Assembly (NCBI GenBank): GCA_021286765.1
Contig: JAJTBS010000001.1
Span: 248,001-312,000, forward strand
Direction of reading: 5' to 3'
DNA length: 64,000 nt
From: Holophagaceae bacterium
Lineage (GTDB): Bacteria > Acidobacteriota > Holophagae > Holophagales > Holophagaceae
Position numbers and translations under genes: made by a program
Shown: piece after piece, positions 6,811 to 11,754 of the stretch
How positions within the stretch are numbered: position 1 is the stretch's first letter
How the letters are laid out: every line of letters begins with the position of its first letter
The notes under the pieces: model-generated
The model's database searches: none
Told to the model about the DNA's origin: nothing
The model's input: the letters and a program-made list of their open reading frames with translations, nothing else

Positions 6811-7509
6811 TCAGGGCTGTCTGAAGCTCTGGGAGCGGTCGGTGCGCCGGGCCTGGATGAACCGGTGGGTGGGCTCGAGATCGGTATCCGGGCGCGGGTG
6901 CAGCACCACGCCCAGGCGCGTGGGATAGTCCTGGCCCTCGAGGTAGGTGAGGTGCAGCACCTCGCCTGGGCAGCGCAGGACGGCGCCATCCGGCAGCTCC
7001 GCGTCGATGTCCACCTGGGCGTGCAGGTCCACCAGCAGGGGCTCGTTCAGGGCCAGCCCCACGCCGGTTTCCGTGAGGTTGACCAGGAGGGCCTCCAGCT
7101 GCCGCCCAGCCAAGCCCACCCGAACCCTAAGCGGCGTCTGGTCGGGGCCGGCCACACGGACATCACGGCGGCGGTGGAGGCGGGCCGACTCGTGGGGCCA
7201 CTCCAGCTGCAGGAGGTTACCCCCGGCCTCATCCTGGGCCGAGGGGAGCAGGACCGACTCCAGGGTCAGCACCTCCTCGCCGAGCAGGATGGTCAGGGTC
7301 ACGGGCGTCCCCTCCGCGGGGACGGAATCCCGGGCGTGGAGGCCCGCCAGCTCCAGGGCCGAACCCGGGCGGAAGCCATGGATCCGCAGGTCGCCGAGCA
7401 GGCGTGCATTGGCAGCCTGGAGGCGGAGGCTCGCCACGGCTCTGGTGAGGCGCGCCTGATGCAGGAACTGCTCCAGGACAGGTGCGGACAGAAGCGATGC
7501 ATGGCCCAT
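6811..7509 (-). CDS. PilZ-domain protein (putative c-di-GMP receptor)
   Basis: A 232-residue cytoplasmic protein. The middle contains the PilZ signature HRRRDVRV followed by NLTETGVGLAL, which correspond to the RxxxR and D/NxSxxG motifs that bind cyclic di-GMP. Asp is replaced by Asn in the second motif, which other PilZ proteins tolerate. The preceding part has a YcgR-N-like strand pattern. It begins 12 bases after the metallophosphoesterase stop and is likely the last gene of that operon. Confidence 0.75.
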   Translation of the reverse strand: MGHASLLSAPVLEQFLHQARLTRAVASLRLQAANARLLGDLRIHGFRPGSALELAGLHARDSVPAEGTPVTLTILLGEEVLTLESVLLPSAQDEAGGNLLQLEWPHESARLHRRRDVRVAGPDQTPLRVRVGLAGRQLEALLVNLTETGVGLALNEPLLVDLHAQVDIDAELPDGAVLRCPGEVLHLTYLEGQDYPTRLGVVLHPRPDTDLEPTHRFIQARRTDRSQSFRQP

Positions 7510-7521
7510 GGGTCTTGCCTT

Positions 7522-8262
7522 TCAAATGCCTTGGCTCAGCCGGTCCGCCAGGTTGCGGTGCAGTCCGGCGGCTTGGATGGCCTTGGTCGCGCCCTTCACG
7601 TCGTAGTCCAGGCGGTGCAGCCTCAGGCAGCGGCGCTTGGGGTTGTAGGTCATGAAGGACGCGCGCGGATCCCGGTCCCGGGGCTGGCCCACCGAACCCG
7701 GGTTCACCAGATACCGGCAGTGCGGCTGCAGTTGGAACCACTCCCCGGGCTGGAGGCAGATCCAGTTCAGCTGGCCCCGGGCTTCATCCAGCTCAAAGCA
7801 GCCGGGCAGGTGCGTGTGGCCGAAGAAGCACAGCTGACCCTCGAAGGCGTCGAAGGCCTGGCTGATCTCGCGCATGTGGAGGAGGTAGGCGTCCTCGTCC
7901 ATGGGGGAGCCATGCGAAATCTGGTAGTCCTCGCCCACCCAGAGCGGCCCCACCGGCAGGTCCGCCAGGAAGCGCCAGTTGTCCTGGCGCAGGCGGTCCC
8001 GGGTCCAGTCCGCCGCCTGCCGGGCCGGCAGGCTGAAGGAGCCGTCCGGCTCCAGTCCCGCGCAGACCTTGTCGTGGTTGCCGCGCACCATGTACCGCGG
8101 CCGCCACTCCTTCACCTTGTCCAGCAGCTGGTTGGGATTGGCCCCATAGCCCACGAGGTCGCCCAGCATCACGAACCGGTGGATGGCCCGCCGCCGCGCG
8201 AAGCGCAGCACGGCTCGGAGGGCGTGCAGGTTCGAATGCAGATCGGAGAGGATCAGGTCCAA
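7522..8262 (-). CDS. Metallophosphoesterase (calcineurin-like, YfcE/MJ0936-type)
   Basis: A 246-residue enzyme with the binuclear metal motifs in order: LILSDLHSN (DxH), MLGDLVGYG (GDxxxxG), RGNHDK (GNHD), then ISHGSP and FFGHTHLP (GHTH). It hydrolyses phosphodiesters or phosphomonoesters; the substrate is unknown. The TTG start at 8262 is chosen because the metal motif begins five residues later and the upstream fusion gene ends at 8283. An open frame continues into that gene but reads as an Arg/Gly/Pro-rich shadow. It sits between the ThiE-AroK fusion and a PilZ gene. Confidence 0.85.
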   Translation of the reverse strand: MDLILSDLHSNLHALRAVLRFARRRAIHRFVMLGDLVGYGANPNQLLDKVKEWRPRYMVRGNHDKVCAGLEPDGSFSLPARQAADWTRDRLRQDNWRFLADLPVGPLWVGEDYQISHGSPMDEDAYLLHMREISQAFDAFEGQLCFFGHTHLPGCFELDEARGQLNWICLQPGEWFQLQPHCRYLVNPGSVGQPRDRDPRASFMTYNPKRRCLRLHRLDYDVKGATKAIQAAGLHRNLADRLSQGI

Positions 8263-8282
8263 GGGATGTCCGGGGAGGTCCC

Positions 8283-9428
8283 TCAGTCTAGCAAGGCTGA
8301 CGCCAGGTCCCGCGAACTGTGACCAAAGGCGAGAAGCATGTCCGCTTGGGACCACGCCGCCATGCGGCTCCGCCACCGCGCCATGAAGGCGGCGCGGTCC
8401 TGGGCAAGGGGGCGCCTGGGATCCCGTCCCGCCCGCTCCCATGCCCGGGTGGGCGTCTCGGCCAGCCACAGCGCGGCGAAGCCGCTGGCGGCCACGGCCC
8501 GGCGACTGGTTTCGGCCTCCCAGGCGCCCCCGCCCAGAGCCACCACCGCCGGTGCCGCCAGGAGGCCCGGGAGCAGCTCCGACTCCAGGGTCCGGAAGGC
8601 CGCTTCGCCGTGGGTTGCGAAGAGCTCCGCCACCAGGCATCCGGCGTGGCCCTCGATGACCTCGTCCAGATCATGGAAGGGCAGGGCCATGCGGAAGGCG
8701 AGCTGCCGGCCCAGGGAGGTCTTTCCGCCCCCGCTGCCGCCCAGCAGCACCAGGCCCTGGCCGGGGCGGAAGGGGGGACGGACCCGCCAGCGCTCCCGCT
8801 GGACCGCCCAGCCGAGGGCCGAGGGGTCTGCCGTGCGGTGGACCTCGCCCACCATGGCCAGGGACTCGGCGCCCGCCTCGAAGCAGGGCCGGGCGTCCGC
8901 GAGGGTGAGGCCGCCGATGGCGATGGGGGCGAAGCCCCGGGCGCGGAGGGCCGCGCAGCCCGCCCGCAGCCCCTCCAAGCCGATGGGTTCGGCATGGTCG
9001 GCCTTGGAGGGGGTGCCCCGGAAGGGGCCGACCCCGGCATGGTCGCAAGTGCCATCCAGCTCGTTCCACTCGGCCGTCGCGTGGGTGGAGGCGCCGAAAT
9101 GCAGTCCGGCCAGCCCCGGCAGCGCCCGAGCCTCCCCGGCGGGCAGGTCCTCCTGGCCCAGGTGGAGGCCCCAGGGCGCGAGGCCTTCCCGGGCGGCGAG
9201 GATGGCCAGGTCCGCCCGGTCGTTCACGCAGATGAAGGGCCAGCCCCCGTTGGCCGCGGCCTCCGCCAGGGCCGTGCGCAACTCCCTCCATTGGGTCTGC
9301 GGATCCAGCGGCTTCCCCCGGAACTGGACCAGGGGAAAGCCCGCCTCGCCCAGCCGCCGGATCTGCTCGGACAGGGGCTCGGGCCGCGTGGCGTCGGTGA
9401 TGGGATAGAGGGGCGGGAGGCGGAGCAT
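8283..9428 (-). CDS. Fusion of thiamine-phosphate synthase-like (ThiE) and shikimate kinase-like (AroK) domains
   Basis: A 381-residue protein with two enzyme domains. Residues 5-205 are ThiE/TenI-like: LYPITD, VQFRGK (35-39), VNDRADLA (68-75), GLHLGQEDLP (87-96), GASTH (112-116), GVGPFRGTPSK (132-142) and IGGL (171-174). Residues 224-381 are shikimate-kinase-like: P-loop LGGSGGGKTSLG (229-240), FHDLDEVIE (251-259), HGEAAFRTLE (273-282), VVALGGGAW (295-303) and RRPLA (338-342). Both sets of motifs look intact, so both activities are plausible: joining of HMP-PP and thiazole phosphate, and phosphorylation of shikimate. No frameshift separates them. It heads a three-gene operon. AroB is encoded separately at 15543. 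Confidence 0.88.
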   Translation of the reverse strand: MLRLPPLYPITDATRPEPLSEQIRRLGEAGFPLVQFRGKPLDPQTQWRELRTALAEAAANGGWPFICVNDRADLAILAAREGLAPWGLHLGQEDLPAGEARALPGLAGLHFGASTHATAEWNELDGTCDHAGVGPFRGTPSKADHAEPIGLEGLRAGCAALRARGFAPIAIGGLTLADARPCFEAGAESLAMVGEVHRTADPSALGWAVQRERWRVRPPFRPGQGLVLLGGSGGGKTSLGRQLAFRMALPFHDLDEVIEGHAGCLVAELFATHGEAAFRTLESELLPGLLAAPAVVALGGGAWEAETSRRAVAASGFAALWLAETPTRAWERAGRDPRRPLAQDRAAFMARWRSRMAAWSQADMLLAFGHSSRDLASALLD

Positions 9429-9577
9429 GGCTCCAGTCTGCCAGCCCGGGGCCGCGGGCCGGGCCCCCTTGTCACGCCTGCGGATGCGCTACCAAGCTGG
9501 CCGTCGGCACCCATGCCCTCGAGGCATCCGGGCAGTCGCCCGCTGAGGGTCCGCGGCTGCGCTTCGCGCGCCACCAG

Positions 9578-9973
9578 GTGGCGAACCTCGTCGGGTTCCT
9601 GGGCTCGGAACTGCCCGAGGTGACCTGTACCGGCGTCATCGAGAAGGCGGGCCGGGAATGCGCCAAGCTGAGCCAGTTCCACACCCGGTTCTGGCATGAT
9701 CCCGAATGCTATTTTTCCGCAGGCAAGAAGCACTGGGGCACCGATTTCGCGAGAGACCGATCCGCGGGGATCATCACGGTGACCGTAGCGGAAGGTCTCT
9801 GCGGCTGTCCCCTGGTGGACGCGAAGCGGACGCCTGCCCTGTGGTGCAACCGCTCCGTCCGGTACCAGAAGGAGAACTCCGAGCCGGTCTCCGGCCGTCC
9901 CGTGAAGGCCCTCCTGCTGGCCCAGATTCTCACCAGCAGCAAGCCCTGCGTCTTCGAGGTAACGCTCTGCTGA
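9578..9973 (+). CDS. Cys-rich protein, probably 5'-truncated or decayed gene
   Basis: The frame gives 131 residues from GTG 9578, but protein-like sequence continues upstream (for example VGTHALEASG near 9503) to about 9422 with no ATG, GTG or TTG. Eight or so cysteines are spread through it, including CTGVIEKAGREC, GLCGCPL and a C-terminal PCVFEVTLC. The ending GRPVKALLLAQIL resembles small Cys-containing sensor-like domains, but I do not recognise the family firmly. No ribosome site precedes the GTG. It may be the C-terminal remainder of a longer gene whose start has been lost. Confidence 0.45.
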   Translation: MANLVGFLGSELPEVTCTGVIEKAGRECAKLSQFHTRFWHDPECYFSAGKKHWGTDFARDRSAGIITVTVAEGLCGCPLVDAKRTPALWCNRSVRYQKENSEPVSGRPVKALLLAQILTSSKPCVFEVTLC

Positions 9974-10119
9974 GGTCCGACGGACTCACATGCCCATCCT
10001 TCGAGGAACCAGGGCCATCCCGGAGTGATGGGGTGGCCTGGTTCCGATGACTGATTGACCATTGAACCTGGGTGACACCCAGGAATGGGCCACGAAGGTC
10101 CGATGAATGATGAAGCGCG

Positions 10120-11754
10120 CTATCGGAGCGAGCTTGGTGCGCCTGCTTCCGCGGCCCTGGGAGCAGCGGGGACTTCCTTGGCGATTTCTCCCAGCGCGGG
10201 GGGCTGAGGCTGATCGCCGAGGGGCACGAGGCGCTGGGCGAGGGGCCTGCCAAGGAGCGGCTGGACGGTCAGATCCGGGTAGACCACCGACCACATCCCG
10301 ACGGTGGGCTCAATGCATGGGTCAGCCCGGTTCGGATTGGGCGCCCAGGGGCTCCAGGTCAGGGATTCCTTCGGTGCCTTGTCGACATACTCCGCAGGGA
10401 ACCAGGTTAGCCGGGGACCACCCATCGTCTTGGCAGTCCAGGCTTCGCGGCCTCCGGCCACATAGGGAACCCGGGTCGCAGCAAGGGGGCCGAGGTGCAG
10501 CAAGGAGGTCCAGTACACCTCATCGAGGACGGCCCCAGTCTGGGCGTTCAGCACGTAGCGGAAGGGCAGGCTGGGAGCGGAGCGCTGGACCAGCAGGTAG
10601 AACTTCTCAGGCGTCTCGCCCACGACCAGTCCCATCTGGCATTTGCCGATCTTGGTGGCCCAGGCCACCCTCCCGTCTATGCCGACCTTGGACACCGTGT
10701 CTTCACCGAAGGTCGCGTGCCGGTAGGTCAGGAAGAACTTCGGATCCGAAGTGGCCAGCAGGAGGTCGTTCTTGATCTCGTGATGGGCCACCCATTCCGC
10801 TTGGTCCTTGTTGAGCTCCATCCGGTGAACCTTTTTCCCGTCGGTCGCCAGAAGCGACTTCGAGTCCTGGAAGACCACCCTGGGGAAGGTGCTCATGCCA
10901 TTGCGTTCGGCGACCGAGATGCCGCCGTCCGGTTCCACCATGGCGATCGCGTCGCCAAAGACGAACCCGAGGTGCCCTTCGGGCCCTCTCCAGGCCCGCT
11001 CCCCCGGCCGCCCTGGGGTAAAGCTGATCCAGACGGGTGTGAGCGTCCGCGCTTGGGCATCCACCTTGGCGAGGATCCCCCCGGCATGGAGGAGAAACAC
11101 GCGGTCCTTCAGGTGGAACAGCTGGACCCCGGCGCCGGCGGCCTGAATATCCGACACCAGATCCCTGCGTCCCATCCCCTTCAGGCCGGGGGCGGTGTTC
11201 CAGGCGGCGGTGGCCTCCTTGAGGGATTGGGCGTTCCAGAGCACCTCGGATTTGCCCGTCTCGCGATCCCAGAGGGAGAGATCCACGAGGGTGTACTGCA
11301 TGGGCGGCCCGGTGATGCCCGCGGCGATGGCGTTCCCGATGGCGTTGCCCAGGGCCACGGCCAGGATGCCGGCTCCGGGGACCATAACGACTGTCGGCGC
11401 CGCCTGGACGACCTGGGTCTTGAAGGAGAAGAACAGGACCGCCTTGCCATCGGGCGTGGCAGCGAAGGTTCCGAATTCATTCGCCTGGCTGGTGGTGGCC
11501 ACCGGGGGGTCCCCAGGGCCGGACGCAATGACCGTTTCCTTGCCATCGGCCTCACGGAAAATCAGGGAACTGGGAATTTTCTCCACCTTCCGGGTGGAGA
11601 AGACGGCGGACCCGAGGGCCGGATGGGCCTCGATCTTCGCCGGCTTCCCGCTGGGGCTGTCGGGCTTGGGTGTCGGATCGGGGGCTGTCTGCGCCACCAG
11701 GAGGGTGCCAGAGAAGGAGAGCATCCAGAGAAGTCTTCGCATGCGGTTATCCAT
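10120..11754 (-). CDS. Large secreted protein, function unknown
   Basis: A 544-residue protein with an N-terminal signal peptide (MRRLLWMLSFSGTLLVAQT). ATG 11742 is an alternative start to ATG 11754. A Pro/Lys/Ser linker follows. The body alternates short strands with phrases such as ATPDGKAVLFFSF, VDLSLWDRETG and SKVGIDGRVAWA, which suggests repeated beta-propeller-like blades. A Gly/Ala-rich hydrophobic segment near residues 115-145 could be membrane-active. No catalytic motif is seen. It stands alone between a decayed gene and the ABC exporter. Confidence 0.7.
   Translation of the reverse strand: MDNRMRRLLWMLSFSGTLLVAQTAPDPTPKPDSPSGKPAKIEAHPALGSAVFSTRKVEKIPSSLIFREADGKETVIASGPGDPPVATTSQANEFGTFAATPDGKAVLFFSFKTQVVQAAPTVVMVPGAGILAVALGNAIGNAIAAGITGPPMQYTLVDLSLWDRETGKSEVLWNAQSLKEATAAWNTAPGLKGMGRRDLVSDIQAAGAGVQLFHLKDRVFLLHAGGILAKVDAQARTLTPVWISFTPGRPGERAWRGPEGHLGFVFGDAIAMVEPDGGISVAERNGMSTFPRVVFQDSKSLLATDGKKVHRMELNKDQAEWVAHHEIKNDLLLATSDPKFFLTYRHATFGEDTVSKVGIDGRVAWATKIGKCQMGLVVGETPEKFYLLVQRSAPSLPFRYVLNAQTGAVLDEVYWTSLLHLGPLAATRVPYVAGGREAWTAKTMGGPRLTWFPAEYVDKAPKESLTWSPWAPNPNRADPCIEPTVGMWSVVYPDLTVQPLLGRPLAQRLVPLGDQPQPPALGEIAKEVPAAPRAAEAGAPSSLR

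Follow-up and report, generated by a model that had tools for sequence, protein, structure and literature searches.

Does a single gene give Holophagaceae both their thiamine-phosphate synthase (ThiE) and their shikimate kinase (SK, or AroK), enzymes of two unrelated pathways? The question was raised by a first-pass annotation of a 64,000-nucleotide stretch of a Holophagaceae genome (assembly GCA_021286765.1, contig JAJTBS010000001.1, positions 248,001 to 312,000; hereafter the window), which described one frame of 381 residues carrying a ThiE/TenI-like and an SK-like domain. Pfam confirmed both domains. The frame lies on the minus strand, which the annotation had left unstated, and runs from an ATG at 9428 to a stop codon at 8285-8283 (381 codons); stops interrupt the plus strand across 8283-9428. 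The gene divides into the following parts, in window coordinates.

8283..9428, minus strand: thiE-aroK fusion gene, 381 aa, stop codon included; supported as an open reading frame, by Pfam and by being kept across the family

8844..9410, minus strand: ThiE (thiamine-phosphate synthase) domain, residues 7-195; supported by Pfam, by alignment and by active-site residues that 55 of 57 fusions keep

8733..8843, minus strand: linker, residues 196-232; its end runs into the beginning of the SK P-loop

8388..8732, minus strand: shikimate kinase domain, residues 233-347, with P-loop, DxD, R279, GGG and R339

8286..8387, minus strand: C-terminal part of SK, residues 348-381, past the Pfam match, with R351 and R355 conserved

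The TMP-TENI profile (PF02581) matched residues 7-195 at 99.8 bits against a cut-off of 27, covering profile positions 1-179 of 180, and SKI (PF01202) matched residues 233-347 at 90.2 bits against a cut-off of 22.1, stopping at position 116 of 159 in the profile. As had been claimed, the catalytic motifs were intact in both domains: Q35/R37/K39, N69-D70, Q92/D94, S114, T139/K142 and G172-G173 in the ThiE half, and G230/G233/G235/K236 (Walker A), D253/D255 (DxD), R279 (substrate arginine), G299-G301 (GGG), R339 (lid arginine) and R355 (C-terminal arginine) in the SK half. Across the 57 aligned fusions, SK motifs were intact in every one and ThiE active-site residues in 55. The linker, for which a helix is predicted at residues 202-216, was also constrained: W207 and Q210 were invariant in 57/57 fusions and R213 was kept in 55/57. 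Both halves scored under the curated cut-offs of the corresponding NCBIfam equivalog models, which are naming thresholds (TIGR00693 for ThiE, 92.9 bits against 145.1; SK, 96.6 bits at best against 186), and by this measure both are divergent sequences.

Alignment placed the ThiE half on the barrel of the stand-alone B. subtilis thiamin phosphate synthase (2TPS; PF02581) over residues 13-206, where the catalytic residues are retained, and the SK half on the solved E. coli and M. tuberculosis shikimate kinases, sharing with stand-alone AroK of the latter (1L4U; PF01202) the P-loop, DxD, substrate arginine, GGG and lid arginine. The fusion differs from stand-alone ThiE in its SK partner, its score under the equivalog cut-off and short insertions that carry conserved, fusion-specific tryptophans (W63, W86, W121), and from stand-alone AroK in its N-terminal ThiE domain and the early end of its Pfam match. 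The small residue past the last barrel strand is Gly in most fusions versus Ser in most canonical ThiE. We built a structure model from eight sequences (mean pLDDT 70.8, with a weak stretch over residues 107-147); each half retrieved its own fold in the PDB, with TM scores by target that carry the moderate confidence of the model (0.72 to 2tps, thiamine phosphate synthase; 0.79 to 1l4u, shikimate kinase).

As TenI and ThiE have a common fold, the ThiE half might be a genuine enzyme of the TenI type, a thiazole tautomerase that makes no thiamine phosphate, and the conserved H116 sits where TenI has a catalytic residue. However, the same histidine is found in the aligned S-x-H of B. subtilis ThiE, the NCBIfam TenI model gave 18.2 bits where the ThiE model gave 92.9, and the ThiE residues R37, K39, N69, D94 and K142 were all kept. 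The family also has a separate TenI-like paralogue. We therefore regard a tautomerase as highly improbable.

We searched 77 Holophagaceae genomes for the same architecture and for separate genes. ThiE and SK occurred in a single stop-free frame in 71 of them, spanning 11 genera; of the other six, five were truncated at contig ends and the last, from an assembly 77% complete, gave no match. Identity was lowest, at 43-44%, in the 1.2-Mb members of genus g16. The fusion was the only shikimate kinase in nearly the whole family, and in the two other families of the same class SK and ThiE were located apart. Neighbouring thiE and aroK genes separated by one in-frame stop do occur (G158, below), which is what a sequencing or assembly artefact fusing two genes would need, but the same open frame recurred in 71/77 genomes from different assemblies, with its linker conserved; the chance of an artefact is negligible. 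The frameshift that the first-pass annotation had named as a possible refutation was rejected for Holophagaceae, the frame being conserved down to 43-44% identity. The fusion is fixed in Holophagaceae and stable. A scan of the genome collection with exact peptide patterns from the window protein returned only close relatives and one SK-only match. Three g16 genomes (G060, G061 and G062) are reduced, at 0.9-1.2 Mb, and kept the fusion, ThiC and ThiG.

The window's own genome (3.15 Mb, 8 contigs, 96% completeness) contained the fusion as its sole SKI match, in keeping with the earlier suggestion that this may be the organism's only shikimate kinase. Its TMP-TENI matches numbered two, the fusion and a TenI-like 187-aa protein, and this second match (G000:C6:144275-144730) was without the ThiE N-D and Q-x-D residues; the search for separate, complete copies thus turned up no aroK and, on the ThiE side, only this degenerate protein. 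As a candidate for the missing ThiE it was rejected on the absence of N-D and Q-x-D. The TenI-like paralogue (L003 1438-2001, minus strand; about 187 aa, weakly scoring, likewise without N-D and Q-x-D) was present in most family genomes and adjoined an aldo/keto-reductase-like gene in the window's genome. ThiC was found there, as was a ThiL-type protein below the curated cut-off; ThiG was looked for in this 96% complete assembly and not found. With ThiC present and ThiG not found, de novo thiamine synthesis in this genome is not supported in full.

Family-wide, no canonical ThiE (that is, separate and full-scoring) was found in 67 of the 77 genomes, and ThiC, ThiG and a ThiL-like protein were found in most. 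In most Holophagaceae genomes with the rest of the pathway, the fusion would thus supply the ThiE that is otherwise missing. The ten genomes with a canonical separate ThiE (199-227 bits) belonged to genera g17, g21 and g23. Genera g2 and g6 of the same class had no ThiE and also neither ThiC nor a real ThiG, as expected if these genes go together.

We reasoned from the exceptions to the conserved active site. In G095 the ThiE half carried R37N, K39E, N69K, Q92R, D94G and K142E while the SK residues were kept, and its genome had no ThiC, no ThiG and only weak ThiL-type matches; in an assembly 89% complete single absences could be gaps, but the three absences and the decayed site agree. In G074 the ThiE active site was broken, the SK residues were again kept, and the genome held two other ThiE-type genes. 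Median dN/dS in the window's genus, by a simple pairwise estimate, was lower in the ThiE half (0.19) than in SK (0.32); between G074 and its sister, dN was 0.48 in ThiE and 0.20 in SK, a ThiE/SK ratio of 2.33 that reverses the genus pattern. In these two broken Holophagaceae cases the ThiE half appears to have decayed where it was dispensable, a pattern that speaks for a bifunctional enzyme at work. Decay did not follow in every such setting: the ThiE site was intact in 6 of the 7 aligned fusions whose genomes also own a canonical ThiE. Outside the family, G458 (f34; L099 1477-2640, plus strand) encoded a fusion without ThiE catalytic residues and with SK intact, the sole TMP-TENI match in its genome, showing that the two halves are separable for selection. 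Such cases of a decayed ThiE half beside a retained kinase are a natural experiment on the loss of one function in fused enzymes. Conservation, the decay pattern and dN/dS together form what we consider the strongest argument that the ThiE site would be a working one.

These observations also bear on whether the ThiE domain is instead a sensor or regulator that binds a thiamine intermediate and tunes SK without making thiamine phosphate, a role that the first-pass annotation had entertained. The two pathways are unrelated at these steps, and general knowledge offers some metabolic logic for regulation: TPP-dependent transketolase makes the erythrose 4-phosphate used by the shikimate pathway, and ThiH uses tyrosine. 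SK domains have, moreover, been turned into parts of regulators elsewhere, as in BzdR (PMC3602430). A sensor, however, would not account for a full catalytic set that is conserved and then lost in genomes that make no thiamine or own a second ThiE, and it would leave most genomes with ThiC and ThiG yet no enzyme to join their products. A purely regulatory ThiE domain is very unlikely.

We consider it highly probable that the gene encodes a bifunctional ThiE-AroK with independent active sites, which would have arisen by the joining of neighbouring genes; the bifunctional enzyme first proposed for this locus holds as far as sequence can show. The N-terminal ThiE barrel would combine hydroxymethylpyrimidine diphosphate and thiazole phosphate into thiamine phosphate, and the C-terminal kinase would phosphorylate shikimate with ATP. 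No intermediate is common to the two pathways at these steps; the active sites are therefore probably independent, and channelling is not expected. They would be tied by a shared transcript, a shared polypeptide and a fixed 1:1 ratio. We infer that both activities operate, independently, in the cell. Each half would be an ordinary enzyme, and it is their pairing that looks real, stable and undescribed. A functional tie between thiamine and shikimate through transketolase or ThiH is conceivable from general knowledge. That such coupling selects the fusion, for instance by cross-talk between active sites, that it accounts for the repeated joining, and that the fusion connects TPP supply with aromatic synthesis in a regulated way, seems to us unlikely.

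The fusion is not confined to Holophagaceae; neither its fixation in that family nor its recurrence in others had been anticipated by the first-pass annotation. A phylum-wide draw of Acidobacteriota genomes identified four further genomes with both domains in line, of which three (G265, G340 and G193) were fusions. The fourth, G158 (L092 3582-4916, minus strand), had thiE and aroK in one frame split by a single TGA, an arrangement that could be a natural unfused pair, a split fusion or a read error. A further draw, from the class to which G265 belongs, yielded G446, G443, G444 and G458. In many genomes of that class (L114-L133) thiE lay upstream of aroK on the same strand, the two genes touching, overlapping or within about 2 kb. 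In the SK tree, the Holophagaceae fusions grouped with their own class and the other fusions lay among the unfused genes from a different class. That tree rejected one clade of all fusions (p-AU 2.5e-6), and with it a single ancient origin shared by every fused lineage. The ThiE tree did not reject such a clade (p 0.46), and the count of fusion events therefore depends on the SK half. By that half, thiE-aroK fusion appears to have happened more than once in the phylum (Holophagaceae, f67/f78, f34, f54). Together with the position of thiE just upstream of aroK in one class, the SK tree points to repeated fusion of neighbours, and the thiE/aroK pairs and the in-frame pair of G158 suggest the likely path. 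Most likely, then, neighbouring thiE and aroK genes were joined, and the fusion, fixed in Holophagaceae, would have arisen separately in other families; thiE-aroK adjacency in the Holophagaceae ancestor itself we infer. With fusion of neighbours recurring, why these two enzymes in particular becomes a testable question.

Each enzyme is already known from fusions with other partners. SK is likewise a module in AroK-AroB (NCBIfam PRK14021), in the AROM polypeptide and in the AroE-AroK fusion of Methanomicrobiales (PMC11237513), whose partners come from the same pathway, and in HTH-SK regulators such as BzdR (PMC3602430), whose partner is DNA-binding; the partner here belongs to thiamine synthesis. 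ThiE is a module in yeast THI6 (3NL6) and ThiE-ThiD types (NCBIfam PRK09517), where the partners act on thiamine intermediates, and in Nudix-ThiE (NCBIfam PRK08999), none of which includes SK. We found no ThiE-AroK fusion in the open-access literature, although automatic architecture listings of the pair may exist; the pair looks undescribed. It is a stable fusion of enzymes from unrelated pathways, kept through a whole family even in 1.2-Mb genomes. Annotation that assigns each gene a single function would be misled by it.

The surroundings of the gene were also conserved, the order in most genera being ABC transporter, fusion, metallophosphoesterase and PilZ protein. In the window, the genes downstream of the fusion are as follows.

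7522..8274, minus strand: metallophosphoesterase gene, downstream of the fusion; start codon inferred; adjacency kept in most family genera

6811..7509, minus strand: PilZ-domain gene, third member of the conserved row

No thiamine or aromatic gene adjoined the fusion in the window, and neither a TPP riboswitch nor another known RNA was found near the gene at a meaningful score. Between the fusion and the ABC transporter, the window holds about 700 bases with no clear gene (9429-10119) and a 544-aa gene without any Pfam match (10123-11754, minus strand). In congeners the gap between fusion and ABC transporter was about 20 to 260 bases, and 1.2 kb in L046.
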